Source: a virus. Taken from it: a stretch of 64,000 nt of DNA. Each line of letters starts with the position of its first letter. The stretch's first letter is position 1. A model generated the notes under the pieces. The model was not told the DNA's origin, made no database searches, and saw only the letters and a list, made by a program, of their open reading frames with translations. Positions 5,510-43,457 of the stretch are shown in pieces. Location: IMG/VR virus record IMGVR_UViG_3300029258_002326, positions 1 through 64,000 of that record; one strand, written 5' to 3'. Position numbers and translations under genes: made by a program.

Positions 5510-5901
5510 AAAAAGAGCAAATAAATATAGGTGACTACGTATTCCACTTGATTGGATCCGTCAGAGACGACGGTGACATCATCAAGAAGGTCATTTGTAG
5601 TCGGGTGATCGCGATATACGAACGCGAGCGGGAAGATCTGCCTGGTAGAATATCTGAGTATCGATACGAGCTTAAGGATACCGAATTCGGAAGGGTCTAC
5701 ATCGGAGAAGGATGCCTCCTGGGCGCATGTGCGGTGGACGCCGTCGATAGGGCGATTGCCTACGGAGAGAGGGAAGTGGCTTCTCTGAGGCAGCTTTTAG
5801 AGGAGATGGAGGATGAAGAGCCGGTGGAAGGGAAGAACGAGGAGATCGAAAAGTTCAGAGCAACGCAGATCACTACAGAACCAAGGGGAACAAATGACTA
5901 A
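5506..5901 (+). CDS. Hypothetical protein (131 aa)
   Basis: The start MKKEQINIGDYVFHLIG suggests a small beta-barrel ('GDYV') domain; residues 85-131 are a charged helix with EEMEDEEPVE. ATG 5506 overlaps the previous stop by 4 nt. No family is recognised. Confidence 0.65.
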   Translation: MKKEQINIGDYVFHLIGSVRDDGDIIKKVICSRVIAIYEREREDLPGRISEYRYELKDTEFGRVYIGEGCLLGACAVDAVDRAIAYGEREVASLRQLLEEMEDEEPVEGKNEEIEKFRATQITTEPRGTND

Positions 5902-6073
5902 TCTATACTGGATATATGCAAATATTAGCGGAAGTGCAAAATGGCACCTCGTACTGGATAGACGACCAGGACTGTACTTCATTCAGGAAGATTTCGAAGA
6001 AGAAGAATACGACATTGAACTATACCGAGAGGAAAATCCAGACCGTGAGGTTATAGCGGTGCCAATCGAGTAG
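5894..6073 (+). CDS. Short acidic hypothetical protein (59 aa)
   Basis: ATG 5894 has AAGGGGAACAA upstream and overlaps the preceding gene. The product is acidic (EDFEEEEYDIELYREE) and aromatic-rich. Small acidic phage proteins sometimes inhibit host enzymes, but there is no direct evidence here. Confidence 0.5.
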   Translation: MTNLYWIYANISGSAKWHLVLDRRPGLYFIQEDFEEEEYDIELYREENPDREVIAVPIE

Positions 6074-6081
6074 ACTGCCCA

Positions 6082-6318
6082 TTGTGTGATGCTCTGTTCT
6101 TGCATGACCGTCTCAGCCTAGCTATCAGCGTGATTGGAAGTGCTTTGGAAGGACTTTCGAAGATACCGGACACAGGTAGTGAAGAAGGAGATCTAGACGC
6201 GGACGAAAGGGCTAGGGGTCAAGCATGTATTAACATGGAGCGGTTTTTAAACTACGCAAAAATGGGCAACGTGTTTGCCGAGAGTTTGCGGTTGGCAAAG
6301 AAAGACAATGGCGAGTGA
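6082..6318 (+). CDS. Hypothetical protein, start uncertain (78 aa)
   Basis: An open frame of helical character fills the gap and its TGA overlaps the next ATG, which supports a real gene. The start is unclear: a TTG at 6082 without a good ribosome site, or a TTG at 6100, are the options, and there is no in-frame ATG near the 5' end. Confidence 0.45.
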   Translation: MCDALFLHDRLSLAISVIGSALEGLSKIPDTGSEEGDLDADERARGQACINMERFLNYAKMGNVFAESLRLAKKDNGE

Positions 6319-6548
6319 TGCCAGCGTTATTTGATTACGAGATGGCCCTCGCTGCCGTGGACCCGTGGAAATTGCGTGAGGATGGGTCAAACAACTGGAG
6401 TGTCCACTACTTTGACCGCATGGGGCGATGGACGGCCAGTGCAACAGGCATGAGCAAGGCCGACGCAAAAAAGAAGGCAGCAAAAAAGCGGCGTAAGGCA
6501 CGCCAGAAGATTGCCCAAAAACATTCAACCAGGTTAAGCAACGGCTGA
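6318..6548 (+). CDS. Small basic-tailed phage protein (76 aa)
   Basis: Residues 1-45 contain NNWSVHYFDRMGRW; the rest is a long Lys/Arg/Ala helix (SKADAKKKAAKKRRKARQK). Such positively charged tails suggest nucleic-acid contact. ATG 6318 overlaps the upstream stop. Function unknown. Confidence 0.6.
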   Translation: MPALFDYEMALAAVDPWKLREDGSNNWSVHYFDRMGRWTASATGMSKADAKKKAAKKRRKARQKIAQKHSTRLSNG

Positions 6549-6563
6549 GAGGCTTGAAGGCGA

Positions 6564-6842
6564 ATGAAGAAGAAATACTGGAAAAAGGTAACGCCGGACT
6601 GCACCAGGGGCTGGGGACTGAAGAAGCAGGGCCGGTTGTTCAGGAACAAGGACCGAGTCCGGCTAGAGGTTACCAAGCGACAGATCGGGCCTGGCATGAC
6701 CTTTGGTGCAATCACAGAGCGATTCGAGTTGCGTGTACACGACAACGTAACGGGGGTTGAATGCGTGATAGAGGATGACTTCCGAAGCGAGATCGAAGCC
6801 GTCACCGAGGCCGCCCAGTTGTTCAGGCTGGAGAAGTGGTAA
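6564..6842 (+). CDS. Small basic hypothetical protein (92 aa)
   Basis: Begins at ATG 6564 behind GAAGGCGA. The N-terminal 30 residues are strongly basic; the C-terminal half is acidic and ends in an amphipathic helix. The base pattern resembles its neighbours and no domain is recognised. Confidence 0.6.
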   Translation: MKKKYWKKVTPDCTRGWGLKKQGRLFRNKDRVRLEVTKRQIGPGMTFGAITERFELRVHDNVTGVECVIEDDFRSEIEAVTEAAQLFRLEKW

Positions 6843-6857
6843 GGAATAGAGAAGAAG

Positions 6858-7340
6858 ATGAAAGAAAACAGAGAGTTCAAGATGAGTTGTTACTTGTGCA
6901 AGCGGCACGAGCCTAGCATGGGGGCCGACGGTGTTCATTGTCGGGCCAAGGGTTTCGAAATTGACCATGAGCGTGCCGTGAGTATTAGGTGTGAGATGTT
7001 CGAGCGCATGGCGGCGTCGGAGTGGCGCTATTGGTGGGTATGGAACAAGGATAAGTACTCCAAGGGGATATACGCGAGCAAGGATGGAACGCCTGATAAG
7101 CAAGCCTCTCCATACCAGTTAGAGATAGAGCAGCCCTCATGCCCGGAGAAGCCGGTAGAGCCAGACTGGCCGAATGGTTGGTACTGGGTGAAGGATGAAA
7201 ACGGGCGAGAGTTGTTCCGTAGAAAAAGCGGCTATCATGCCTACGATAAGTACAACGGAAGGCGCGAAGAATGGGATTGCTATGAGGTGGTAGCCAGCTT
7301 TAATGGAGTCAAGTTCGTCAATGAGGAGGATGACAGATGA
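6858..7340 (+). CDS. Cys-module protein with Trp-rich domain (160 aa)
   Basis: MSCYLCKRH ... VHCRAKG ... IRCEMF at residues 9-52 is the recurrent CxxC-Cys-CxxF module. The remainder carries YWWVWNKDKYS and WPNGWYWVKDENGRE, repeated aromatic-rich strands probably forming a small beta sheet. ATG 6858 follows GAGAAGAAG; ATG 6882 is a possible alternative. Function unknown. Confidence 0.65.
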   Translation: MKENREFKMSCYLCKRHEPSMGADGVHCRAKGFEIDHERAVSIRCEMFERMAASEWRYWWVWNKDKYSKGIYASKDGTPDKQASPYQLEIEQPSCPEKPVEPDWPNGWYWVKDENGRELFRRKSGYHAYDKYNGRREEWDCYEVVASFNGVKFVNEEDDR

Positions 7341-7765
7341 TATACAAGAAAAGACCGTTAAAGGTAGATGCAGAGCGTTGGTACAAGGTTGAGTACGACA
7401 GGCAGGCGGGGCAGAATACGCAGCCGATCTATCACCTAGACGTTGGGCACTTTCGGGATCCGGAGGTTGACGGCCAGGAGATGTGCGATCTGTGTAACAA
7501 TGAAATGTACAAACACGGATGGATAGATAAGTACGACGGTAGTGGGCATGTGGTTTGTCCGGAGGACTGGGTTGTGACCGAGATAGATGGATCCAAGGTT
7601 CCGTACAAGCTTCACGATTTCGAAAAGTCCCATGAGCCCAACCTCGCATATGCTGTTTCGGCGCTCAGGGACAATTTCGAGAGAGACGCCGTTGTCTTGA
7701 TAGAGAGAGTTGGCTCAGGAATGAGGTTCACCCCGATGGAGGGCGACGAAGAGATCATCGGGTAA
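7337..7765 (+). CDS. Phage 'YKKRPL...PxDW' family protein with Cys insertion (142 aa)
   Basis: The start MIYKKRPLKVDAERW and the later GHVVCPEDWVVTEIDG match a widespread small phage protein type usually reading 'YKKKPV.IEA..W ... PGDWI..G..GE'. A segment CDLCNNEMYKHGW is inserted between the two halves and, with the Cys of CPEDW, could hold a metal. Role in phage biology unknown. The start overlaps the preceding stop. Confidence 0.65.
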   Translation: MIYKKRPLKVDAERWYKVEYDRQAGQNTQPIYHLDVGHFRDPEVDGQEMCDLCNNEMYKHGWIDKYDGSGHVVCPEDWVVTEIDGSKVPYKLHDFEKSHEPNLAYAVSALRDNFERDAVVLIERVGSGMRFTPMEGDEEIIG

Positions 7766-28683: not shown

Positions 28684-31600
28684 TTGATAGTTACGACACG
28701 CAAGGGGAGAAAGAAGTCTGTAATAACCAAGGAGGAGCTGGCGGCCCATGCCGGTGACATGGTTGACGCCCTGACAGACGCAGAGCTAGAGCTGGTGATG
28801 GGCCTGATAGACGAAGATCCGGAGATTCAGATAGAGCACCACAAGACGATGCGCGGGCACTTGTACCACCGAGAGCCTGTCTCTATGGAGCAATTCATAG
28901 AGGATCCACATTACCTGGGCGAGTCTTGCTCGACTCTCTACCCAGAGCTTAAGAAAGATCTCATAGATCTGTTTGATTATCCATTCAGAGAAGTTGTGCT
29001 CACAGGCGGAATTGGAGTTGGCAAATGCCAACGAGGGGTGAACGAGCTTTATGATCCGGTCATGGGGAGAAGGCTAACTGTAGAAGATGCTGCATCTTTT
29101 GGCAAGTACAAAGCGTGCGCCACGTTCAACAAGGATGAGCGGAAGACAGTGAGTGGAGGGTGCAAAGTATTCGAAAGCGGAAGAAAGAAGGCGGGGGATC
29201 TCGTGCTTGGGAGCGGGAAGAAGATTGGACTAACTCCTGATCACCCTGTCTTGACACCGTGGGGATACAAGCCAGTCGGAGAGCTTAAGAAGGGGGATCT
29301 TGTTGCGACTTCGCGAGAGATGCCCTTACCTGAGATGCCTTTGGCTATTTCTGACAATGAGGTCAAGTGGGTGGGCTACATCTTGGCAGACGGCGGTGTG
29401 ACAACGTCTCGGATTGTCTTCGTAAAGGGTGTTGATGAAATAATCTCAGAGTTTTGGTCTCTGTCGGAATCGCTTGGCGGGGATGTGAAGGAAGAGGATG
29501 TGGATGCTGATGCGCGGAGGGTTCGTGTCCTGGGGCTTGATCGCTTGAGGGATAAATTTGATCTCAAACACAAGTCCAAGGACAAGAGAGTTCCGAGTGA
29601 GTTCTACGGGCTAGACAATCGCCAGCTTGCCTTGTTGCTGAATCGCATTTGGTCGTGTGATGGATGGTTCTGTCGCAGGGATAAGAAAAAGGGCAACTGG
29701 GAGATTGGAATATCCTTAGCCAGTGAGCCGTTCGTGAGGGATATTCAACAGCTCTTGCTTCGTTTTGGGATTCACTCTCGGATGCGTCCGCGTGAGATGG
29801 GGTACACGCACAACGGAGAGAGGAAGCATAGCGATGCTTGGTCTTTGCAGGTGCTGGGTAGGGATGAAGTTATTAGGTTCTTGAATTCGATTGGAAACCT
29901 CGTAGGCAAGGAAGAAGATTGCGAGACTGCGCGGCGCGAACTTGAGTTCGTAAAGGGCAACTCGAACGTGGACATTACCCCCATGAACAGAGAGGTGATG
30001 ACCAGGGTTCGTAAAGAGATCGGGCCGGTGCCCAAGAAGGCGTACTGGCCGCGTCCGGCGCAGGGCTCGCAAATGGGCCACGGGGTGTTCTTGAGATTCG
30101 CTGAGGCGTATGATCTTCCCGAGTGGTGCTCCTGGTGGGGTGGAGTATTCTGGGATGAGGTGGAATCGTATGAGTGCGGCGATGAGTTAGAGCCTGTGTA
30201 TGACATCGAGGTTCCTAAGACGAGGAACTTCTCAGTGCACGGGGTTATCGTTCACAATACGTTCGTGCTCTCAATAGCCATATGCAGGGTGCTTTACGAG
30301 CTGTCTTGCTTAGTGAATCCCCAGAAGACTTTCGGCCTGTCGTCGGGTACGGAGATGGTTATTCCGTTGATCTCAAAGAACCTTCCGCTGGCGCGTGCTG
30401 TCATGAAGACGGCGGTTGACGACAAGATCAAAGAGTCTCCGTATTTCATGAACGAGTTCTCTCCGAAGATCTCCAAGGAAGCCACGCTGTTTCCTCATAA
30501 CATCCGAGTGATCATAGGGTCGTACGGTAGTGAGCGAGTTCTTGGCTCGAACGTTTTCTGTGTTGGGCTTGATGAGTGCCTAATACTAGAGGCAGGTTTG
30601 ACAACGGAAAGAAAAGGTGTTAGGCGATCCATGACAGTTGGAGATCTTCTGGAAATGAGTCCAGAGGACGCTGAAAACTGCAAGGTTGTAGGTTTTGATC
30701 ATGCGGAGAATAAGCTCAAGGCTGGATGGTGGAGAATCAAGAAGTCCACGGTTCAAGAGCTTGTTGAGATCAGGACTGCGCTGGGGTCGGTATCGCCGTC
30801 GAGAAAACATCCCGTTCTTGTCCAAAGAGGAGACTGGCTTGTTTACGTTCATGCGGAGGATGTCGTCCCTGGCGATTTTGTTGTCATGGAGGATCGTGAT
30901 GCCAGCGAAGGGGCAGACTGTAAGCGAAGAGCAGAAGAAAAAACAATCGGAGAAGATGAAGGGTCGAGAGTTATCGGAGGAGACGAAAGAGAAGATGAGA
31001 TCTGCGCAAAAGGCGCGGTACGAGAATGGGTACGTCAATCCGATGAAGGGGAAGACTCAGTCAGAGGAGACGAAGAAGAAAATCAGCGAGGCCCAAAAGG
31101 GGAGGAAGTTCTCCGAGGAACATCGGCGGAAGATCGGAGAGGCGAATCGCAGAAGGAAGATCTCGAAAGAGACGCGGGAGCGAATGAGCGAGGCTCAAAA
31201 GAGCAAGGCACCTGCAAGCGAGGAGCACAGACGGAAGATAAGCGAAGCCAATACAGGCAGGAAGCATACGGACGAAGCTCGTGCGAACATGAGCAAGGCT
31301 CAGAAGGGTCGCGCCCTGTCAGAGGATCACAAAAAGAAGCTGTCAGAGGCGGCCAAGAAGCGCACAGGAGAGGCGAATCACTTCTACGGAAAGACTCACT
31401 CCGAGGAGGCGCGGAAGAAGATGAGAGAGGGTCAGGCGGGTGTACAGCGGAAGCCTCACTCCGAAGAGACAAAGAGAAAGATGAGCGAGTCTCAAAAGGG
31501 GCGCAAGTTTTCCGAGGAGACGAAGGAGAAGATGAGAAATGCTGCGAAGCGTCGTGCAGCCGATCCAGAGTGGCGAAAGAAGATGAGCGAGTCGTCGAAG

Positions 31601-34600
31601 AGGGGCTGGGCAGAGGGCACCATTGGCCAGAACATGCCACCCCGGCACGGAGAGGCGAACCCTTTCTACGGGAAGAAGCACACGGAGGAAACGAAGGCGC
31701 GTCTGAGCGAGGTTGCAAAGGCGAGAGAACCTCGCGTGCATACGGAGGCGTCGAAGGATGCGATTTCCGAGGGGAACATGCGGGCTATCAAGGACGGGAC
31801 GAGGACGTACAAGTTCCGTGCGACGTCTCCGGATGGTGGGGTTGTGCCTTGCCGGACAGAGGCGGAGAAGAGACTAGCCGATCATCTTTGTTCTCAGGAC
31901 GGGGTTGTTTCTGTTGTCGGCGAAGACAAGATGCCGTTTGTGGAGTACGATTTCAACGGCCAATCCAGGATAACGGTTGCGGACTTCATGGTAACAGCAA
32001 GCGACGGTCGAATCATTATCGTAGAAGGGAAGGCGCAGGGGTCGCTATACGGAGAGAGAGAGAGGGCTCGGTTTCTTGCTACATGGGAGCACTGCAAGGC
32101 GTGCGGGTTCGACATGATTATATCATTCAACCATGCAAGGGACCCCGATCTGTCTCTCGGTCCATTTGTGACACAGGAATTTGTGGAGATGGTGAAACAG
32201 GGGTTTGTTCCCATGTCACTGCTTTCGGACAATCGTGCCACTGGGGTTGCGGCAAGGCGAACGGGCTTTGGGCATCACGGGAAAAGAGTAGCTGGAGGAG
32301 ACAGAAAGTATCTGTTCAGCACTGTGTCTCCGGACGGGGTGATCGTCAATTGCAGGACAAGGAACAGCCTGCGTGTAGCCGATCATCTTTGCTCTCAGAG
32401 CGGGGTTGTTTCTGTTGTAGGCGAAGACAAGATGAGTGCTATTTATCACAAGGTGAATGGAGAGGGGCGCCAGACGGTTGCAGACTTCATGGTTACTCGC
32501 AGCGACGGACATATTATTTTTGTGAATGTAGAGAGCAACACGTTTGCAGAGAGCAAGGGCCTCTGTCATCGTATGAATGCAATGTGGGACCATTGCAGGG
32601 CTGTCGGTTGCAGTTTCATGATGGTATTTGCCGATGCGTCCGTGGATCCAAATGTGTGGGAGGGTCCGTTTGTCACGGATGCGTTTGTCGAGCGCGTCAT
32701 GGGCACAGGGGTGATTCGACAAGGATTAATGGCCGATGCCAGAGTTCCTGCGTTGACGGTGGCGTCTCCGAGCGGGAGCACGATCCATTGCGCGACAGAG
32801 AAGGAGATGAGGCTGGCGGAGTGCCTATGTCAGCAAGAGGGCGTGGAGTCCATTTCCTCAACAAAGAGGGAGTGCGTGGCGAGGTTCGAGTTCGAGGGGC
32901 GGGCGCGAAGGGCTGTGGCGGACTTTATTGTTCTCATGCGGGACGGGAGAGAGGTGGTTGTCTATTCCATACATGGGACAAACGCGAGGAGCGTATCATC
33001 AAGGAGTGCGCTCATGGCTATGTGGGATCACTGCAAAGAGATGGGCATGAGCATGTTGCTAGCCCTCAAGGAAGCGAGGAATCCAGATCTGTCCCTTGGT
33101 CCGTTCGTGACGCAGGAGTTCGTGGATGGGTATATGCGCGGAGATGCCAAGAGGAGTGCGCTCATAGACAAAAGGCCAAAGGGAAGGAGACCATCTCCGT
33201 TGAAGGGCAGGAAACTTGGTCCTCGCAAGAAAATGACGAACTTGAGTTCGCAGGAATCCGCCCCGAAAGAACACATGTCGAAGAAATCCCTGTCGGTCTT
33301 TGCCTCGCGGAAGTAGTGTCCGTTTCTGCCCTGCCCGCTGAACAAACATATTCTCTATGCACGGAGCATCAGACGTTCATCGCTGATGGGTTCGTGGTGC
33401 ATAATACGAACTTCCCGCCGAACCGTAAGAGCCAGCAGATCACTACAGCTATGGGCCAGAAGAAGACAAAGGCTCACTTTGATATTGTGGAGAAGGTCTA
33501 CCGGAACTTGGTCCGGCGAATAAAGTCCAGGTTCCAGGTTGCAGGCGGGGATTTCCCTGGGATGATCATCTTGGCTTCTTCGGCTGCTACCCTGGACAGT
33601 TTCACTGAGCGGAAAATCCGGGAGAGCAGGCTTGATTCCTCTGTCTTCGTCCGAGATCACACTCAGTGGACGGCCAAGCCTGGGTCTAACTTCTGCGGGG
33701 AGAAGTTCTGGGTTCTGTGTTCGGCGTCCTCTATGCGCTCTAGGATAATCGGAGACGATGAAGTGAAGCACTTCACCGACGAGTGGCTGGAGGAGAACGA
33801 TTCTTTTTTGATCGACATTCCGGTTGAGTACAAGTCGGACTTCGAGACAGACATTGAGAATGCACTAAGGGACCTTGCTGGTATATCTACTCAGGCTATA
33901 TCGATTTATATCCAGAGGCCCGACGCGGTGGACGCGTGTGTGAGCGAAGAGATGGAGCATCCGTTTACTGCGTATGAGTGGACATCCGGGCAGGCCGGGG
34001 CGTTCAAGTGGAACATTCTGTGTAACATGTTCGAGCGTCGGCTGCCTGGCGGATACACGGAGACAGCGTGGTCCCCCAAGATTAATCCTTCGAAGATGAG
34101 ATGGTGTCACATTGATACATCTCTCTCGGGGGACTGTACGGGTTTCTGTGTTGGTCATATAGACAAGTGGGTTGAGGTAGTAAGGCGAGACGGGGACGGG
34201 GTTCGTTACACGGACCTGGCACCCTCTTACGTCATTGACGTGATGTTGCGAGTGAACCCACCGGCTGGAGAGCAAATCTACATGCCGGACTTGCGTCGTT
34301 TCATTTACGAACTACAGGCACATGGTTATCAGTTCCTTGGGTTTTCGTCGGACACATACCAGTCGGCGGAGATGCACCAGCAAGTAAAGAGAAGGGGGAT
34401 TTCTACCCATATCATATCGACGGATACGTCCACGGATCCTTACGATGAGCTGAAGATGGCGATGTACGAGAACCGGATTACGTACTATCATTATCAGCCA
34501 TTTATTGAGGAAATCAAAGACTTGGAATATGATCGCAACGTGGGCAAGATCGATCATCAGCAGGCCGGGTGTTTTGTCGGAGAGACGCGGATTCCTCTTC

Positions 34601-35223
34601 TGGATGGAAGCTGCCCTATGATCTCAGAGTTGGATGGGGTGGATACGTGGGTGTACTCCTGTACAGAGGGTGGTCGCATTGTTCCGGGCCGAGCAAGGGG
34701 TCGATTAACGAAAGAGGTGACCGAGCTTGTGGATGTGGTTCTGGACAGCGGGGCTGTCGAGAGGTGTACGCATGAGCACCTTTGGATGTTGAGGGACGGG
34801 ACGTACAAGAAGGCATGCGACTTGGATCCTGGCATTGACCGTTTGATGCCGATTGATTTGAATTCTTTTCCGGTTGAGCACAAGGTCAGGCATGTAACTC
34901 CTGTTCGCCTTGATAAGCCGGTGGCTGTGTATGACTTAGAGGTTGAGGAGTATTCCAACTTCTCGCTTTCTTCTGGAGTGTTCGTCCACAACTCCAAAGA
35001 CGTTAGTGACGCAGTAGCGGGTGTGGTGTATGGTTTGATGAAGACATCGACCAAAATCCCTGCGATTGTGGGCGATAGTAAAAGTGCCGCTGTTGAAAAC
35101 GAATACGACTGGGTCTCACCTATGATCCAGACGGACGGCATAAGCGCCGAAGAGCTAAGGGACATGAAGGACGCGGGAGATACAGACGTGTCGGAGTATG
35201 TCCCTATTGTGTTTGGAGACTGA
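28684..35223 (+). CDS. Terminase large subunit precursor with three inteins (2179 aa)
   Basis: The spliced protein would be 684 residues (114 + 106 + 388 + 76). Extein 1 ends in [11 protein letters not shown], the Walker A loop; extein 2 opens TFVLSIA and ends VFCVGLDE, Walker B with the catalytic Glu; extein 3 opens TNFPPN and contains the nuclease [13 protein letters not shown]; extein 4 opens [12 protein letters not shown], the conserved last nuclease Asp region. Order and motifs are those of packaging ATPase/nucleases. Inteins occupy 1495 residues. The start is a TTG at 28684 behind GGGG; a better start is not obvious. Intein 2 carries a second gene in another frame (30899-33316). Confidence 0.93.
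29026..30258 (+). other. Intein 1 of the large terminase (411 aa, LAGLIDADG)
   Basis: Inserted between Lys and Thr of the Walker A loop. Starts with Cys1 ([11 protein letters not shown]), has block [14 protein letters not shown], and ends [20 protein letters not shown] with Thr+1. The middle shows [11 protein letters not shown] and [12 protein letters not shown], the two LAGLIDADG motifs of a DOD-type homing endonuclease. All splice-junction residues (Cys1, His-Asn, Thr+1) are intact, so it should splice. Confidence 0.92.
29936..29951. promoter_or_regulatory. Near-palindrome inside intein 1 (one mismatch)
   Basis: GCGAACTTGAGTTCGT; in frame it encodes RELEF plus one base. Its presence in a mobile intein coding region suggests either chance drift or a true operator inside the gene. 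Confidence 0.55.
30899..33316 (+). CDS. Homing endonuclease nested out of frame in intein 2 (805 aa)
   Basis: ATG 30899 has GGAGG 6 nt upstream; stop TAG 33314-33316. Frame is +1 relative to the terminase. Residues about 8-300 are roughly 13 NUMOD3-type repeats ('[16 protein letters not shown]'), known DNA-binding modules of homing enzymes. Residues about 305-775 are three copies of a ~150-residue domain, each with VADF[MI]V ... DG. Only the first retains [19 protein letters not shown], the D...ExK of a PD-(D/E)XK nuclease; copies two (FVNVES) and three (VYSIHG) lost it. Nucleotide identity between copies is high. Probably cleaves intein-less terminase genes. Confidence 0.85.
33236..33251. 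promoter_or_regulatory. Near-palindrome near the end of the nested endonuclease (one mismatch)
   Basis: ACGAACTTGAGTTCGC; first base changed. It lies 81 bp before the end of the nested gene's coding sequence. Confidence 0.5.
34570..34992 (+). other. Intein 3 of the large terminase (141 aa mini-intein)
   Basis: [18 protein letters not shown] at the start, CTHEHLWML as block [22 protein letters not shown] in parts at the end with Ser+1. There is no endonuclease. Inserted before SKDVSDA of the nuclease domain. The two ends closely resemble those of the portal intein (PLLDGS; NF[SG]LSSGV), suggesting a common source. Confidence 0.9.
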
Positions 35224-35224
35224 T

Positions 35225-38071
35225 ATGGGATTTACCGAACTAGTCAAAGGGCTCTTCAAGAGGGACAGGGATGTCCAGGCAGCAGCTATTGCCAAGGGTA
35301 CGGCGATTGCTACCAACGTCTCTGTTGACAGTATGGATCCGAGTAGCGGGACAGAGGGCGTCAATGCCCTTCAGAGCCAGCTAGCCATCGAGCAAGATCT
35401 GATTTCTCGTTACATAGATTACGAGAATATGGACGACTATGTTGAAACCAGCGCAGCTCTAACGGTGTTCGCGGATGACTCTACTATTCCAGATACCCTC
35501 CATAGGAAGACCGTGTGGGCTACGTCGGAGGATCGGCTCGTTCGCGATCTTCTGAACGACATGCTTCACAGGATGATCCGTATCGAGGAGGACGCCTGGG
35601 TCACAGTTAGGAGCTTGGCAAAGTACGGGAACTTGTACGGGGAGGTTCTGACCACAAAGGGCGGGGTAATAGGTATCAACTGGCTTCCCGCACCGTCGAT
35701 ACGTAGAATAATAAACAGCAAAGGCGTCCTTCTTGGGTTCATCCAAGATGTGTCTGGGCAGTTCAACTACGATGCGGGGGCGCTTGTAGAGGCTCTAGAG
35801 GCTGGCAAGAAGCCCATTCCTGAAAACGAGAACAACTCTGGGATTACCTTCTTCTACCCTTGGGAGATGGTCCATTGGCGGCTGCGCTCCAAGCGGCTTC
35901 GCTCTCCTTACGGGTACGGTGTTCTAGACAGTTCACGGTGGATCTGGAAGCGTCTCCAGTTGATGGAGGACACAGCCCTGGTTCAAAAGCTGACAAGGGC
36001 TCCGGGTCGGTATGCGTTCTACGTGGATACCGGAGACTTGCCGCCTAAAGAAGCGGTGGCTCTTGTCCGCAAGGTTAAGAGCGGATTCAAGAAGAAGCGT
36101 CTGATCGATCCGAGCACAGGCCAGCTGGATCTTCGCAATAACCCGCTGTGCCTAGCGGGTGACACGGAAGTTCCTCTCCTTGATGGGAGTAAAAAAACGA
36201 TAGTCGAGATGGCGGAAGCGTTCGACAGGGGCGAGGAGCAGTGGGTTTACGGCGTTGACAGGAAAAATAACAGCAAGATGGTTCCTGGCAAGGTTGTGTG
36301 GGCAGGTCAGACACGTAAAGACGCTGAGCTAGTGCGCGTTACATTAGATAATGGCGAGTCTTTCAGGGTTACTCCTGATCATAAGTGCATATTGAGAAGC
36401 GGAGATCTGAAGGATGCCCAGGACTTGGTTCCTGGCGAATCCTTGATGCCGTTGCGTAGGACAATCTCTTCTTTTGAGAAGGGAGACACGATGGACGGGT
36501 ATGAGAAGGTCTACGATCCGTCCAGCAAGAAATATGTGTATACGCACAGGATGGTTGTGCGGGAACTAGGGATGAAGGAAAAAGGCAAGCTCACTCATCA
36601 CAACGCAGGGAAGCTGAATAACAATCCTAGTTGCCTTGAGAGCATGACATGGAGAGAGCACTCGGAGCATCATTGTAAACTGGGGCAAATGGGCGGTGCT
36701 AAACTCAGAGAGCTTCGCAAGACGGATAAAGCTCTGGATCAAAAGTTACGAGATGCAGCGTCGAGGACGCTTAAAGAGCGTCACGCTGATCCTGAGTGGA
36801 AAAAGAGGAATGCTGAGGCAGTGCGTCGGAGTAACATCGAGCGTGATAGTGGTAGGTACATCCGTGCCTATAACGATTCTGACAAGCATGTAGAAGACAA
36901 CGCGCAGAGAAGCTCCGCCATGAAGGCGTTCTGGACCGATGATGCCAGGTCTGAGTATTCGGAAACTAGGACGATCAGCTACTCGGATGTCTTCATTTCG
37001 GCGCTAGAGGAATTCGTCAGGAGCAACCCTGGGTCGAGCGCAGACGATGTGGCAGACTTCGTGTCTAGCGATTCTGTTGCTCTAGGTCTTCTCAATGAGG
37101 GAAGTTGCCGCGTGATAAAGAAAGCCCATCGTCATTTGCTTTTAAAGGCGTATAGGGCGCATGGCTATTCTAACTTCAGCGAGTTCAAGGAATCTGCGTG
37201 TTCCTACAATCACAAAGTTGTGTCTGTTGAGCGTCTTTCCGAGAGAGAGGACACGTATACGCTGACTGTTGACTCGTGTCACAACTTTGGCCTTTCTTCT
37301 GGGGTTGTAGTTTGCAACTCGCCATCCGAAGATTTTTGGATTCCTACCCGTGGAGGGAAAGATTCCACAAGGATCGAAGTCATCTCTGGGCCAGATGTTC
37401 AGATGATGGACGACGTGGAATACTTCCAAGGCAAGCTGGTTACATCGACGACGGTTCCGAGGCGCTTCATGGGTCTTGGGGATCCTGGTGACTCTACGAA
37501 CATGATGGCGTCCCAGGATGACGTGAGATTTGCCCGTGCCTGTATGAGGCTCCAGCGTGAGTACGTGCAGGGGCTTGAGAAGGTTGCCCGTATACATCTC
37601 GCGGCGTTGAACATCGATCCCGATTCTGTGCCTTGGCAAATCAAGATGACGGTTCCGTCTGCGATCTTCGAGATGCAGCAGATTGAGGTTATGAATGCCC
37701 AAGCTGGGCTGGCGTCTTCGCTGTCTGATTACATGAGCAAGCCTTGGATTCTCCAACGCGTGTTCAACTTCACGAGAGACGATGCCCAGGCTATGATCCA
37801 GGCGAAACGCGATGAGGAGTCCGGGGATGTTGTCCGGGAAGCCGAAGCGCAAGCGAAGGTCATGAAGTTATTCCCCGAGCTTGAGGGCGCACTCGACGAC
37901 AAAGACGGGGGAGGGAAAGAAGAAAGCGTTTCCCCTAAGAAGGCACCTATAGCGGAGAACGAGGACAGGAGGCTTCTTCGCTCCTTGAGCAAGAAGGCTA
38001 ACGCGATTGAGCGTTCTGTCACTCGGATCAATAAAATGTCACGGATCAACGGGTCCGGAAAGAGGAGTTAG
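35225..38071 (+). CDS. Portal protein precursor with one intein (948 aa)
   Basis: ATG 35225 follows the terminase stop by one base, with TTGGAG upstream. The spliced portal would be 558 residues (308 + 250). Extein motifs include ALTVFADDSTIPD, HWRLRSKRLRSPYGYGVLD and, across the junction, NPL/SPSEDFWIPTRGGKDST, the block typical of T4 gp20-type portals ('EDfwiP.R.G...T'). It forms the dodecameric ring that docks the terminase. The C-terminal region is charged and helical. Confidence 0.92.
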   Translation: MGFTELVKGLFKRDRDVQAAAIAKGTAIATNVSVDSMDPSSGTEGVNALQSQLAIEQDLISRYIDYENMDDYVETSAALTVFADDSTIPDTLHRKTVWATSEDRLVRDLLNDMLHRMIRIEEDAWVTVRSLAKYGNLYGEVLTTKGGVIGINWLPAPSIRRIINSKGVLLGFIQDVSGQFNYDAGALVEALEAGKKPIPENENNSGITFFYPWEMVHWRLRSKRLRSPYGYGVLDSSRWIWKRLQLMEDTALVQKLTRAPGRYAFYVDTGDLPPKEAVALVRKVKSGFKKKRLIDPSTGQLDLRNNPLCLAGDTEVPLLDGSKKTIVEMAEAFDRGEEQWVYGVDRKNNSKMVPGKVVWAGQTRKDAELVRVTLDNGESFRVTPDHKCILRSGDLKDAQDLVPGESLMPLRRTISSFEKGDTMDGYEKVYDPSSKKYVYTHRMVVRELGMKEKGKLTHHNAGKLNNNPSCLESMTWREHSEHHCKLGQMGGAKLRELRKTDKALDQKLRDAASRTLKERHADPEWKKRNAEAVRRSNIERDSGRYIRAYNDSDKHVEDNAQRSSAMKAFWTDDARSEYSETRTISYSDVFISALEEFVRSNPGSSADDVADFVSSDSVALGLLNEGSCRVIKKAHRHLLLKAYRAHGYSNFSEFKESACSYNHKVVSVERLSEREDTYTLTVDSCHNFGLSSGVVVCNSPSEDFWIPTRGGKDSTRIEVISGPDVQMMDDVEYFQGKLVTSTTVPRRFMGLGDPGDSTNMMASQDDVRFARACMRLQREYVQGLEKVARIHLAALNIDPDSVPWQIKMTVPSAIFEMQQIEVMNAQAGLASSLSDYMSKPWILQRVFNFTRDDAQAMIQAKRDEESGDVVREAEAQAKVMKLFPELEGALDDKDGGGKEESVSPKKAPIAENEDRRLLRSLSKKANAIERSVTRINKMSRINGSGKRS
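36149..37318 (+). other. Portal intein with HNH endonuclease (390 aa)
   Basis: Starts CLAGDTEVPLLDGSKK, block B RVTPDHKCIL, ends YTLTVDSCHNFGLSSGVV then VCN with Ser+1. The penultimate residue is Cys where His is usual. The insert holds LTHHNAGKLNNNPSCLESMT plus EHSEHH, an HNH (His-Me finger) nuclease, and a NUMOD-like basic helix (ADPEWKKRNAEAVRR). Joined exteins read NNPLSPSEDFW. Confidence 0.9.
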
Positions 38072-38074
38072 CAA

Positions 38075-38932
38075 ATGCCATTTATCCAAGGATCCAAGCT
38101 GGACAAGTATTACCGTGGCAGCCTAGCGCACCGGAGTCATGCCGTGGACGTGGCTGTAGCGGAGCGATTCGAGGGCAAGAAAGCTCAGGTCATGGTAGTC
38201 CAGGAAGACTCGGCGGTAGTGGTTATGGATAACAGTCCTGTCCTGATCGTTGGTTACGAGATGGACGGGGACATTGCCAAGATCACAAAAGAGTCCATAT
38301 GTAAAGATATACCCGTGATAGAGAGCGGTAACATGGATGCTTTTGTAGCAGGTGAGCTTAGGGACATTGCGAAGAAGATGGCAATGGGCGAGGACGTTTC
38401 ACGAACTCAAGTTCGCGAGCTGGCATCTGTGATGGAGCCGGGCGGGGACTATTGGCTCACTGGCGTTTTGTCCAAAATAGACGAGTCTACTGAGGACTCT
38501 GATTGGTTCAAAATGTACGAGGCCAACCAGGAGAAGGTCCGCACTGCCATGCACGGTAGTATTAGGGCTATCGAGGGGGCGGTCCCGAGTACAAAATACG
38601 CGAGCATTTCCCCTGGAAAGCTCCATGCGTTTGAGGAAGAAATCAGGGAATCCATGGGTGTCATATCGTCCGTTATTCAAGGAATAGTTGACGAATGCGA
38701 CGCGATCATGTTTGATCAAAAGGAAGATGAGTTCTTTGGTGCCACCTGTGAATCGTTGAAAGTTGAAGCGCAAGTCCTCACGGGCTTGCTCGGCAAGGCA
38801 GAAAAGTTGATGCGTTCTGAAGATATGGAGCGCATGTCCGTGGCACATGACAAACTTGCTGGGCGAGCAAAACAAATGGCAGTCGTTGCCGCTTACCTCA
38901 AAAAGCGCAGCGCAAACGAAGTGAGGAGCTAG
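38075..38932 (+). CDS. Putative head-core or prohead-associated protein (285 aa)
   Basis: Lies between portal and the core/protease genes, where T4-like phages encode small prohead core proteins. It begins MPFIQGSKLDKYYRG; the second half is helical and coiled-coil-like (LKVEAQVLTGLLGKAEKLMR). No family is recognised. It carries a near-palindrome at 38401. Ends GAG CTA GCA ATG-close to the next gene. Confidence 0.6.
   Translation: MPFIQGSKLDKYYRGSLAHRSHAVDVAVAERFEGKKAQVMVVQEDSAVVVMDNSPVLIVGYEMDGDIAKITKESICKDIPVIESGNMDAFVAGELRDIAKKMAMGEDVSRTQVRELASVMEPGGDYWLTGVLSKIDESTEDSDWFKMYEANQEKVRTAMHGSIRAIEGAVPSTKYASISPGKLHAFEEEIRESMGVISSVIQGIVDECDAIMFDQKEDEFFGATCESLKVEAQVLTGLLGKAEKLMRSEDMERMSVAHDKLAGRAKQMAVVAAYLKKRSANEVRS
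38401..38416. promoter_or_regulatory. Near-palindrome inside the 38075 gene (one mismatch)
   Basis: ACGAACTCAAGTTCGC within codons for S-R-T-Q-V-R-E. First base changed; arms otherwise intact. Confidence 0.5.
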
Positions 38933-38934
38933 CA

Positions 38935-40002
38935 ATGATCACGCGCAAAGTCAAAAGTCTAGATGAAGATCTTAGGTCACTCGGTCTAATCGCAGAGGGC
39001 GAAGAGGTTAACTCCAGCTTGCTGGGTGAGGAATCCACGGAAGAAGCCGTTGCAGAAGACGACGATGCTGAAGAATCCGTAGAAGAGGCCAAGAAGCCTG
39101 CATGTGAAGGCGACGATTGCCCCAAGGCTGACGACGAAGAAGAGGAAGAGAAGGAAGAAAAAGACGAGGAGAAAGAGGAAGGCGCCAAGGAAGAGGATGT
39201 CGAGGATCTAGAGATCGACATGCTTGACGAGGACGACGCTCTTGACTCTGATAACGTTAATATGGAGATGCTCAATGCTATCTCCGAGCTTCCGATTTCC
39301 GAGATGGACACAGATGACATAGCGGACGTCTTAGAGGCGCTCAAAGAGAAGAATCTCCCAGAAGGTGACGAAGTTCTCGCTGAACGCGCAGAAGAAATCG
39401 TTGACGTTCTGGTTGCAGAGGCCGTAGCCAAAAAGACCCGTAGGTCCAAGGCTGGCTCCATGGCTAAAAAAGCATCCTTCCAGTGTCCTCAAGGCACTCG
39501 CAAGGATCCAAAAGATCCCGGTGGCCGTCGTTGTGTAAAAGCGGCGAAAGCTGCGGGCGGTGCTGGCAAGCTCGCCAAAGAGGGTCGCAAAAAAGCTCGC
39601 TGGTCCAAGAGCGGCGGCGGACAGAAGTCCCAGAAGAAATCTGCTCGCTGGGCAGCACGTCGTGAGGATGTAGAGCTATCCCCATTCGCAGCGGAACTCG
39701 CTGGGTTGCTGGAGAACGACGATATTCAAGTCGAGAGCGTAGTGACTATTCGCGGTGAGATCATTGATCGCATCGGTTCCATCATGGAGATGCTCCACGA
39801 GGAATTCCTGGACGAGAATGTCACATCCGTCATGGAAGGCGTCTATGAAGGCGTCGTTGAGGCTATGGACGAAGGTCGCCTTGACGAGAACACCATGGGC
39901 GAAGACGACTTTATTGCAGAGCTTAAAGCTCCTCTCCAGCTTATCGCTAAGTCTCTCGGTCAAATCGAGCAGAACGAAGGTAGTGAACTGGGAAACGAGT
40001 AG
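38935..40002 (+). CDS. Head-core-like acidic/basic protein, zero-frame product (355 aa)
   Basis: Strongly acidic N-terminal half (EEEEKEEKDEEKEEGAKEED), then a basic Cys-containing middle (FQCPQGTRKDPKDPGGRRC and a Lys/Ser-rich run) and a helical end (IRGEIIDRIGSIMEMLHEEF). Position before the protease and the charge pattern suit an assembly-core or scaffold component. The frame ends TAG 40000-40002, immediately after a slippery heptamer, so a longer product by -1 frameshifting is predicted. Confidence 0.7.
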   Translation: MITRKVKSLDEDLRSLGLIAEGEEVNSSLLGEESTEEAVAEDDDAEESVEEAKKPACEGDDCPKADDEEEEEKEEKDEEKEEGAKEEDVEDLEIDMLDEDDALDSDNVNMEMLNAISELPISEMDTDDIADVLEALKEKNLPEGDEVLAERAEEIVDVLVAEAVAKKTRRSKAGSMAKKASFQCPQGTRKDPKDPGGRRCVKAAKAAGGAGKLAKEGRKKARWSKSGGGQKSQKKSARWAARREDVELSPFAAELAGLLENDDIQVESVVTIRGEIIDRIGSIMEMLHEEFLDENVTSVMEGVYEGVVEAMDEGRLDENTMGEDDFIAELKAPLQLIAKSLGQIEQNEGSELGNE

Positions 40003-40196
40003 GCCGTCGCAAAGGCGGCAAAGAGAGAAGGACGAAGTATTCGTCTGGTCGCAAGGAGGCAGTAGGTTTTGAGTCACTCAAGAAAAGCGCTCGTCCGGAT
40101 GGGAAGAAAACTGATAGGAAAGTCTCCCCAGAAGCCAAGCGGAGGCTCAAGCGAAACCCTCTTAGAAGAATACTCGCACGTCAGAAGGCGTGGTGA
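38935..40196 (+). CDS. Predicted -1 frameshift product of the core gene (about 419 aa)
   Basis: After slippage at G GGA AAC (39990-39996) translation continues in the -1 frame through CGA GTA GGC to TGA 40194-40196, adding 66 residues of which 26 are Lys or Arg and only 6 acidic (for example RRKGGKERRTKYSSGRK and AKRRLKRNPLRRILARQ). That frame has no start codon of its own and ends 16 nt before the protease ATG. A basic tail could bind DNA or the acidic core during head assembly. Confidence 0.65.
39990..40019 (+). promoter_or_regulatory. Programmed -1 ribosomal frameshift signal
   Basis: Heptamer GGGAAAC (39990-39996), read in zero frame as ctG GGA AAC, matches X XXY YYZ. A 6-nt spacer GAGTAG contains the zero-frame stop. 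Hairpin: GCCGTC (40003-40008), loop GCAAA, GGCGGC (40014-40019), six pairs including one U-G. Confidence 0.75.
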
Positions 40197-40212: not shown

Positions 40213-41829
40213 ATGCCCCAGGTGCTAATCGAAGCTAGCCCGGTTCAGATGACTCTCACGGAGTCTAAGAACGGGAAATTTGTTGCTCGTGGTGAGTTCG
40301 GACGCGTAGGTATCCCAACTCAAAATGGTCGCATCTATCGTAAAGAGCTGATGAACAGAGAGATCGGCAGACTTTCGGAGGACATCTCTTCTCGTCGGGT
40401 ACTAGGTGAGCTTGACCATCCATCCGACGGTAAGACTTCGCTAAAGCGGGTTTCTCATGTGATTACCGATCTGACAGTCAACGATGACGGTCTGATTATC
40501 GGAGAGGCAGAGATTCTGGATACCGCAGAGGGTAAGAATCTCAAGGCCCTCATCGCTGCCAATGTTCAGATAGGCGTTTCCTCTCGTGGATTCGGGAGCA
40601 CTCGCCCATCTGACGATCCCAAGGTGGAAGGCGATGTTGTCCAAGATGACTTCGTTCTGAAGACATGGGATTTCGTAGCTGATCCTGCGGTCAAGACAGC
40701 GCTTCCTGAGATCTTCATCGAGGATGTTAACGAGAAAGAGGATGCAGCAGATCTGTTCTTGGCTGAGTTCCCTGAGATTGCAGGGAAGATCCAAGAGGAC
40801 GCCAGGGTGAAGGCCCAGGCAGAGATCGACGCTACTGCCAAGGAAGAACTCCGCAGGGAAATGGCGGAGGGATTCGAGCAGCGTTTAGCGGATGCAATCA
40901 CTGGTGTGCGTGCGGATCTCACTGAGTCCATCCGTGAAGAGTTCCAGTCCGATCCAGAGGTAGGCGGGGCGAAAGGCGTCCTGGCTGCTATCTCTGAGAT
41001 GGTGTCTGCGTACAACTCGGTTCCAGACGAGGACGCTGTACGCGATTCTCTCCGAGCTTCCGAGCTAGAGGTATCCGAGGCAAGGCAGCAAGCCAAGGAT
41101 GCCGAGAAAGCGGCGCTGAGAGCGCAGTGCGAGCTGGTTATCGAGAGGAACATCGGCGAGCACCCGATGCGTGATGCGTTTAGGAATATCATCGAGGGTG
41201 TAGAATTCACCAGCGTGGATGACGCAGAACGCAAGATTGGCATCATGATCGAGGAAGCCCCTGACCTGAGTGAGGGGTATGTGTCTGATGCAGAGGCGGA
41301 GCTTCGCGAGGAGAACGCCAAGTTAAAAGGTCAAATTTCTCTCCTGTCGGAGAAGACTGATACGTTGAATGATAAATTGTTGAAAGCTGTAGAAGTGGGT
41401 ACGGAGGCCAGCGATCAATTACAGGCGGCGCGAAACGCCTTGGAAGAGTTCGATGGCAAACTTGAGGCTATGACGGAAGAGCGCGACGAAGCATTAGCCG
41501 AGGCGGATAATGCGGAGAAGCGTTCCAGGTTGGAAGCCTACAAGGTCCAAAAGGTTGCTGGATTGTCTAATGGTAGACAGTTGATGAGCGTAATGGAGGG
41601 TGTAACTTCCAAGAGCGCAATTGATACGTTGGTTGAAGAGAGGGGAGTTCAAGGGATCCCAGGAGGAGATCTGGAGGCTATGCGGGCAAGGTTGTCCCGT
41701 GGCCAGGCCATGTCCGAGAGGGAATTGAACGAGTCGCATCAAGCTAAGCCTTCCGCATCTGGTCGTCCACAGGTCGACGAGTTCGGTAACAACATGAGCG
41801 AGATGCAACGCCTAGCCGGTCTGGAGTAA
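40213..41829 (+). CDS. Prohead protease fused to a scaffold-like domain (538 aa)
   Basis: Residues 1-175 match T4 gp21-type prohead proteases: GIPTQNGRIYRKEL, LGELDHP with the catalytic His69, RVSHVITDL, and GVSSRGFGS with Ser123/124, then DFVADPAVKTALP. Residues about 180-538 are a long charged coiled coil ending NMSEMQRLAGLE, as expected of a scaffold/core protein (gp22-like), so protease and scaffold appear joined. ATG 40213 is preferred over TTG 40069 because the latter overlaps the frameshift extension and adds residues without family similarity. Confidence 0.85.
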   Translation: MPQVLIEASPVQMTLTESKNGKFVARGEFGRVGIPTQNGRIYRKELMNREIGRLSEDISSRRVLGELDHPSDGKTSLKRVSHVITDLTVNDDGLIIGEAEILDTAEGKNLKALIAANVQIGVSSRGFGSTRPSDDPKVEGDVVQDDFVLKTWDFVADPAVKTALPEIFIEDVNEKEDAADLFLAEFPEIAGKIQEDARVKAQAEIDATAKEELRREMAEGFEQRLADAITGVRADLTESIREEFQSDPEVGGAKGVLAAISEMVSAYNSVPDEDAVRDSLRASELEVSEARQQAKDAEKAALRAQCELVIERNIGEHPMRDAFRNIIEGVEFTSVDDAERKIGIMIEEAPDLSEGYVSDAEAELREENAKLKGQISLLSEKTDTLNDKLLKAVEVGTEASDQLQAARNALEEFDGKLEAMTEERDEALAEADNAEKRSRLEAYKVQKVAGLSNGRQLMSVMEGVTSKSAIDTLVEERGVQGIPGGDLEAMRARLSRGQAMSERELNESHQAKPSASGRPQVDEFGNNMSEMQRLAGLE

Positions 41830-41858
41830 CTAGAGCGGCCTAACCAACGGAGAAATTG

Positions 41859-43457
41859 ATGGAAGCTAGAGAACTATTCGAGCAAGCCGGAGCCAAGACT
41901 GTTTTTGACGAGTCTTATACTGGTGCATGCGTCCAAAAATGGGGAAAGATGCTTGGCGGCATCGAGGACACCCATCTGAAGAAAAACACCGCTGTCCTTT
42001 TGGAGAATGAGCTTCAACATTTGAAGAGCTTCAATGAGGATACTCTATCCACAAACGCAGGCGCGTTCACGAAATACGTGTTCCCGATCCTGCGCAGGGT
42101 TTTCCCGAATCTGATTGCCAACCAGTTGGTATCGGTTCAGCCCATGACCTCTCCTGTTTCCGGCATCTTCTACTACGAGAAAAAGTACGAAGATCGCAAA
42201 GGAACCAAGATTCCTCAGACACCTATTGCTGATCTTCCGACAGCCATGGGTTACGACGGTGAATTGGCAGCAGGCGACAATCTCAATCAGAACTTCGCGA
42301 AGTATTACAGCTCTGAGTTCGTAGACTACGACGTAGTTTGCACAGACACAGGAACGTCCACAGACGCCCTGACCCAGGCTGGAACCAACTGCCGTGGAGC
42401 AGCATGGTCTCCCATCCGTGACAACGGAACAGTCGGACAGCGCACTTTCTACGTCAAAGCGTACTACCGCTTTGTCGATCCTGATGCTGCATCGGCTCCA
42501 ACCGAAGCCATCGCCACAATGGATGCTTCTGGCAATCTGATCGACAATACTGCCACTGGCAACACCGTTGGAACATTCACCATCGCCACAGGCGCATGGG
42601 CGATTGATCCTGTCGGTTCCGGTGGTACAGCTGCTGGCGCATTGTTCGTCGACAACACCGTCATCTACCTCCAGTATTTCGTGAACTGGGAACTCGTAGG
42701 CCAGACTTCTGGTGCCGAGATTCCTTCGATTGGTCTGGACATCACTCTATCGACCGTTCAAGCCGAGAGTCGTAAGCTCAAAGCTCGTTGGTCCGTAGAA
42801 GCCATGGACGACCTCAAAGCCCTTCACGGCTTGGATGCAGAGACAGAGTTTGTTTCTACGTTCTCCAACGAGGTTCTTCTGGAGACAGACCGCGAGATCA
42901 TCACAGACCTCGTGAACAACGCCGGTCACACCGCTGCTTACACCTACAGCTCGACTGTTCCTGGTGAAGTAGAGAGCATTCGCCAGCTGCTGACTCAAAT
43001 CAGTGCAGTGTCCGCTCGCATTCACAAAACAACCACTCGCGCTCCCGCGAACTTCCTGGTTGTTTCGACTGCGGTCGGTGGACTCCTGGACCAACTCTCG
43101 ACACACGGCGACTTCGCCTCCATCGAGCAGAATATCCAGAGCCCAAGTTACGGTCCTGTGACTGCCAACTTCGGCATCACCAGAATCGGAACTCTGCTTC
43201 GCAAGTATGCGGTCTACCAAGATCCTTACATGGCGGACGGACAGATCCTCGTCGGTCTCAAAGGCAACAGCTTCCTGGACGCTGGTTACGTGTACGCACC
43301 TTACGTGCCACTACAACTGACACCAACCTTCATGGATCCGAACGACTTCACATTCCGTAAGGGTGTCCGCACTCGTTACGCAACTAAGATGTTGCGTCCT
43401 GAGTACTACGGAGTGATCAACGTTTCGGGTCTGCCTTCGGTGACAACTAGTCTCTAA
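41859..43457 (+). CDS. Major capsid protein, T4 gp23-like (532 aa)
   Basis: NTAVLLENELQHL, DTLSTNAGAFTKYVFPILRR, PNLIANQLVSVQPMTSPVSG and FYYEKKYEDRKGTK are the N-terminal hallmarks of gp23-family HK97-fold capsid proteins; KARWSVEAMDDLKALHGLD and DREIITDLVNNAG follow further on. A Thr/Ala-rich stretch about residues 170-270 is an insertion-type domain. The N-terminal ~60 residues are probably removed by the prohead protease. ATG 41859 follows ACGGAGAAATTG. A terminator directly follows. Confidence 0.95.
   Translation: MEARELFEQAGAKTVFDESYTGACVQKWGKMLGGIEDTHLKKNTAVLLENELQHLKSFNEDTLSTNAGAFTKYVFPILRRVFPNLIANQLVSVQPMTSPVSGIFYYEKKYEDRKGTKIPQTPIADLPTAMGYDGELAAGDNLNQNFAKYYSSEFVDYDVVCTDTGTSTDALTQAGTNCRGAAWSPIRDNGTVGQRTFYVKAYYRFVDPDAASAPTEAIATMDASGNLIDNTATGNTVGTFTIATGAWAIDPVGSGGTAAGALFVDNTVIYLQYFVNWELVGQTSGAEIPSIGLDITLSTVQAESRKLKARWSVEAMDDLKALHGLDAETEFVSTFSNEVLLETDREIITDLVNNAGHTAAYTYSSTVPGEVESIRQLLTQISAVSARIHKTTTRAPANFLVVSTAVGGLLDQLSTHGDFASIEQNIQSPSYGPVTANFGITRIGTLLRKYAVYQDPYMADGQILVGLKGNSFLDAGYVYAPYVPLQLTPTFMDPNDFTFRKGVRTRYATKMLRPEYYGVINVSGLPSVTTSL

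Follow-up and report, generated by a model that had tools for sequence, protein, structure and literature searches.

A head-assembly gene with a highly probable programmed -1 ribosomal frameshift near its stop codon in a group of T4-related phages

We examined a 64,000-nucleotide stretch of DNA (the window) from a virus record of 157,265 bp and found that a head-assembly gene of this T4-related phage group very probably ends in a programmed -1 ribosomal frameshift. From this one gene, here called the body gene, two products are predicted: a protein of 355 aa and, via slippage, one of 420 aa with a conserved basic C-terminal tail. Signal and tail are both kept throughout the group, so that, judged from sequence, the frameshift almost certainly occurs and is of use to the phage. 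Canonical tandem slippage is strongly supported as the mechanism by the features described below. A ribosome on GGA-AAC would encounter a hairpin 6-9 nt downstream, and in a fraction of ribosomes both tRNAs would slip back to GGG-AAA and some 55-80 further codons would be read; unshifted ribosomes would terminate within 0-5 codons.

Slip site and gene order in the window

The last zero-frame codons of the body gene read CTG GGA AAC GAG TAG (Table 1). The original prediction had described G GGA AAC in the correct phase followed by GAGTAG, a 6-bp hairpin (GCCGTC/GGCGGC) with a 5-nt loop, and a basic -1 frame that is open for 66 codons, contains no start codon and stops 16 nt before the protease ATG. 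All of this was confirmed: the heptamer and stop lie at 39990-40002, the hairpin is part of the minimum free energy (MFE) fold, and the -1 frame from 39990 (GKRVGRRKGG...RQKAW, then stop) is about 40% Lys+Arg. The 70 nt 3' of the heptamer fold with a z-score of -3.4, and none of 200 shuffles folded as well.

A rough set of 67 non-overlapping ORFs in the window (17,699 codons) contains 46 in-phase XXXYYYZ heptamers, of which none but that at 39990 has a stop within 12 nt. Longer open -1 frames than that at 39990 occur in 18 of the 67 ORFs, and the length of the open frame was therefore rejected as evidence. Since many -1 frames in the genome stay open this long, the window by itself is no proof, and the case for a frameshift is made by the conservation of signal and tail in relatives.

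Table 1. Features of the portal-to-coat interval in the window
Feature	Position	Strand	Basis or remark
Portal gene with intein-like insertion	35198..38071	+	Gene order and conservation in relatives
285-aa protein; conserved neighbour	38075..38932	+	ORF and relatives
Zero-frame gene (body), 355 aa, gp67/gp68 position	38935..40002	+	ORF; no Pfam/PHROGs match
Slippery heptamer G GGA AAC	39990..39996	+	In zero-frame phase
-1 extension, 66 residues after the slip plus TGA (40194-40196); basic, core SGRxExxGFES..DGKKTDRKVSPEAKRR	39997..40196	+	First new codon CGA at 39996
Zero-frame stop TAG, 3 nt 3' of heptamer	40000..40002	+	Sequence
Candidate stimulatory hairpin, GCCGTC (40003-40008), loop GCAAA, GGCGGC (40014-40019)	40003..40019	+	6 nt after heptamer; MFE fold
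Second predicted stem, 7 bp	40030..40046	+	Fold prediction
Prohead protease (Peptidase_S77, T4 gp21-like), long C-terminal coiled-coil region	40213..41829	+	Profile matches: Peptidase_S77, E 3e-12; PHROG 207 head maturation protease, E 6e-38
Major capsid protein Gp23	41856..43457	+	Profile match, E 1e-69

The order portal, body, protease and coat gene is the same in 14 of the 15 relatives checked; the contig of the fifteenth (L051) ends before the coat gene. The 285-aa neighbour gene is likewise present in 14 of the 15.

Conservation of the signal, the stem and the tail

Relatives were collected with three probes: the tail in the -1 frame, the body in the zero frame, and the protease downstream. 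Searches with the body or the protease are blind to whether a heptamer or a tail is present. Loci were counted as distinct at no more than 90% identity over positions -90 to +100, with the window included. An in-phase heptamer beside a zero-frame stop, together with a homologous -1 tail, was present at 40 distinct loci. The heptamer is GGGAAAC at 36 of these, and the other four have variant XXXYYYZ sequences: GGGAAAA twice (L139, L153), AAAAAAC once (L034) and, directly 5' of TAG, AAACCCT once (L118). It abuts the stop at 21 loci and lies 3 nt from it at 17 and 15 nt from it at two, and the stop itself is TGA (20 loci), TAG (10) or TAA (10). The loci reached with the protease, a bait containing neither body, tail nor heptamer, agree with those found through the body and the tail, except that some start too near the protease to show the region. 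The original prediction had proposed examining homologues for conservation of the heptamer and hairpin; both are kept in dozens of them, including some in which the body is only about 28% identical.

The first base of the heptamer is supplied by CTG, TTG, TCG, GAG or ATG, so that the G is constant across Leu, Ser, Glu and Met codons. In L034 the corresponding sequence is TTA AAA AAC, in which Gly has become Lys in both frames and the slippery pattern is preserved. Against the frameshift, other second codons are more prone to shifting than AAC in E. coli (PMC5009743), and the phage record yielded no tRNA gene. An upstream Shine-Dalgarno-like stimulator, which is an optional, non-defining feature of the dnaX type, was rejected, since the upstream sequence did not exceed what synonymous recoding gives (mean fraction 0.58). 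A TTTAAAA in L094 and L107 was set aside, its -1 frame merely continuing into the next gene.

The arrangement also bears on whether a continuous gene has been split by a sequencing or assembly indel, which the original prediction had expected to appear as homologues with the extension in the zero frame. The two-frame arrangement itself is all that speaks for an indel. The same arrangement recurs at the 40 distinct loci, on many contigs, and the tail was in the zero frame at none of the loci examined. The independent relatives thus refute an indel, and we consider this explanation practically impossible. Slippage by RNA polymerase instead of the ribosome is very unlikely as well. The run of six consecutive A in L034 would suit it, but the runs in GGGAAAC are only three long, and polymerase slippage generally requires homopolymers longer than three. 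The phase-specific heptamer followed by a hairpin is, moreover, a ribosomal signature.

A stem follows the heptamer in most of the group. The 60 nt that follow the heptamer give a gap-free alignment in 12 main-clade relatives and contain a two-helix hairpin, which starts 8 nt after the heptamer. This hairpin has 21 pairs, with 92.9% of cells paired and compensatory changes at six pairs. Its covariation score is 0.233, compared with 0.125 +/- 0.017 in shuffles (0 of 500 reach it) and at most 0.123 with slid partners. In other relatives, the window included, the stem at this distance is shorter or of another kind; L020, for instance, has GCCCCUC/GAGGGGC, and L033 and L057 have CCGCUUAUC. Of the 40 distinct loci, 33 have a stem of four or more stacked pairs beginning 5-11 nt downstream, and the MFE fold has none at the expected place in the remaining 7. 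Thirty-eight of the 40 fold better than their own shuffles, with a mean z of -2.6; single-sequence z-scores are often modest, and they are not independent because the sequences are related. The constraint on the stem also overlaps that on the coding sequence.

Codon comparisons indicate that the -1 tail is under purifying selection as a protein. Main-clade differences at the three codon positions of the -1 frame number 685, 393 and 1988, and the median pN/pS is 0.18 in this frame versus 1.65 and 1.82 in the other two, both of which contain stops. Compared with the window, 15 relatives have tails that are 59-69% identical and bodies that are 40-53% identical. The tail core reads RxRRTAYxSGRxELxGFES...DGKKTDRKVSPEAKRK...NPLART and is followed by an aromatic-basic end, and complete tails contain 29-40% Lys+Arg. 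The tail gave no confident match to PHROGs, that of the window had none to Pfam, and a structure model yielded no confident fold (pLDDT 54).

Alternatively, the tail could be a separate small gene with a non-ATG start, or be reached by stopping and restarting after the zero-frame stop. Five distant loci (L144, L146, L147, L148 and L151) fit such a scheme, as they have a -1 homologue of the tail with no canonical XXXYYYZ in the body/tail overlap; reinitiation is therefore possible there. For the group as a whole this explanation is very unlikely. Neither the tail of the window nor that of L026 contains ATG, GTG or TTG, and elsewhere no start codon occurs at a conserved place. In addition, the -1 frame of relatives frequently opens only just 5' of the heptamer, and a separate gene would leave the conservation of both heptamer and stem without explanation.

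The head gene and the possible role of its tail

The original prediction called the body a head-core gene. As regards position this holds, the gene lying between those for the portal and the Peptidase_S77 protease, and from this place in the gene order the product is presumed to be a core or scaffold protein. The body matched no Pfam or PHROGs profile, and its structure model (pLDDT 68, partly confident) matched nothing in the PDB or BFVD. The protein has an acidic N-terminal half, a basic middle with two conserved Cys (SFQCPxGTRKDPKDxxGRRCV) and a helical C-terminal domain. The basic segment (39436-39663, body residues ~168-243; SFQCPxGTRKDPKDxxGRRCV...RKKxRWxKSG) is highly conserved without a family match, and it could possibly bind metal or nucleic acid.

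In the T4 gene order, gp67 and gp68 lie between the portal and the protease gene, a position that the body gene shares. Both are many-copy proteins of the prohead core that are degraded by gp21 (PMC9958956). No PHROGs or Pfam match links the body to gp67 or gp68, a weak test given that these are fast-evolving short proteins and that the T4 proteins were not compared directly. Nor was there a profile match between the body and the corresponding genes of the marine T4-like contigs L004-L006, in which no such frameshift arrangement was present.

Most annotated phage frameshifts are in tail-assembly chaperones, with a few in coat genes. The chaperones of lambda (G/GT), KL1 and HCTV-1/-2 resemble the present case in the type of signal and in having a longer second product. 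In the Burkholderia phage KL1, a slip between gp18 and gp19 is predicted at GGGAAAC immediately 5' of TGA (PMC3483164). The slip sites of the haloarchaeal HCTV-1 and HCTV-2 are G_GGA_AAC and A_AAA_AAC (PMC5009743), and both heptamers also occur among the relatives found here. However, the chaperone genes lie near the tape measure gene, whereas the body gene, which has no sequence relation to them, is flanked by portal-side genes and the prohead protease; it has neither the tape-measure location nor a PHROGs match that would mark it as a chaperone.

Frameshifted head genes are also known, including gene 10 of T7 and T3, the major head protein gene of Lactobacillus phage A2, and genes of the Listeria phages PSA, A118 and A500 (PMC5009743). 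As here, a head gene gives a second, C-terminally extended product. In those phages it is the major coat protein that is extended, often by an Ig-like domain, whereas here a short basic tail is added to a protein in the core position; this protein is not the coat protein, as the Gp23 gene is separate. The original prediction had considered the gene an unusual one for a phage -1 frameshift. This is right for a core-position gene and does not apply to head genes as such; the new element is the particular head gene that is frameshifted. The mechanism appears to be an ordinary canonical -1 frameshift, and what is new is its occurrence in a core-position head gene of a T4-like lineage. We found no report of a frameshift in such a gene of T4-like phages among the open-access papers that were searched.

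Taken with the gene order, the pattern of signal and tail suggests that the body protein belongs to the prohead core and that tailed copies would be a minority. While the head is assembled, the basic tail may allow a set proportion of subunits to bind nucleic acid, the capsid shell or the protease as a partner. The role we favour is thus that of a core protein in which a minority of copies would have a basic anchor.

The frameshift might instead serve mainly for translational coupling, with shifted ribosomes reaching the tail stop near the protease start so that the frameshift rate would set the protease-to-core ratio. In most relatives the tail stop is indeed only a few nt from the protease start, and the Shine-Dalgarno sequence of the protease often lies within the last tail codons (AGAGGGTGATGAGATG). 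We nevertheless regard this as doubtful as the main role: the tail is conserved as a protein (see the pN/pS above) beyond what a mere path for ribosomes would need, and the spacing to the protease match measures 16 nt in the window but 62-67 nt in two other groups, those of L129 and L149. Coupling may operate beside the tail's own role as a basic anchor. We tentatively propose, at about the same level of confidence, that one frameshift does both, producing a minority of basic-tailed subunits that connect the core to the shell, portal or DNA and setting the dose of protease by delivering ribosomes to its gene. If so, prohead assembly and maturation would have a built-in ratio control of a kind not described in T4.

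The locus offers a testable case of stoichiometric control of a head core via recoding. Gene callers will truncate the protein at its zero-frame stop and so lose the tail, which is better conserved than the body. The combination of GGGAAAC and stop with a -1 tail of the RRTAYxSGR type beside the protease should be a near-diagnostic marker for finding and annotating the group.

Range of the phage group and intein-like insertions

The group is apparently a broad, T4-related and uncultured one, encountered solely in DNA from the environment. Body and tail matched nothing among cultured phage records at the DNA or the protein level, and cultured phages with related coat or protease genes had no match to either. 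In the portal-to-coat interval of Bacillus phage SP-15 and Listeria phage LIS04, both T4-like relatives by their coat protein, and of a 595-kb uncultured phage, no in-phase heptamer was found near gene ends. A scan of genome contigs with the tail found none, and one with the protease alignment found a single contig, in a Bacteroidales bin. This 3,960-bp contig (L153, PWRF01000195.1) from a metagenome-assembled genome (MAG) bears the same head operon with a GGGAAAA slip site. It is likely a phage contig, and its bin possibly hints at a host, binning in itself not being host evidence.

In a more distant set (L136, L140, L141-L143, L144, L146, L147, L148, L151 and L152), the protease is 30-41% identical. 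A tail with an RRTAYxSGRxE-type core is again found upstream of the protease, overlapping the body gene and in the -1 frame relative to it. Where this set has heptamers, they lie farther from the stop: GGGAAAA at 45 nt in L136, CCCTTTC in L140 and L141, and several in L152.

Intein-like insertions were seen in several genes of these phages. That in the portal gene of the window (CLAGDTEVPLLDG...SSGVVVCN) splits the gene. A single 2179-aa ORF in the terminase position (28684-35223) contains three (ending ...VIVHN, ...FVVHN and ...VFVHN), and the second of them includes a long, odd Arg/Glu/Gly-rich stretch in which TRF found no tandem repeat. In L070 (~5900-7400), reading of the sequence placed an intein-like insertion in the protease gene right behind the conserved GELDHP motif. 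The same insertion is probable in L103, L112, L137 and L138, where protease matches start at residues 69-71 and a gap of ~1.4 kb is present.
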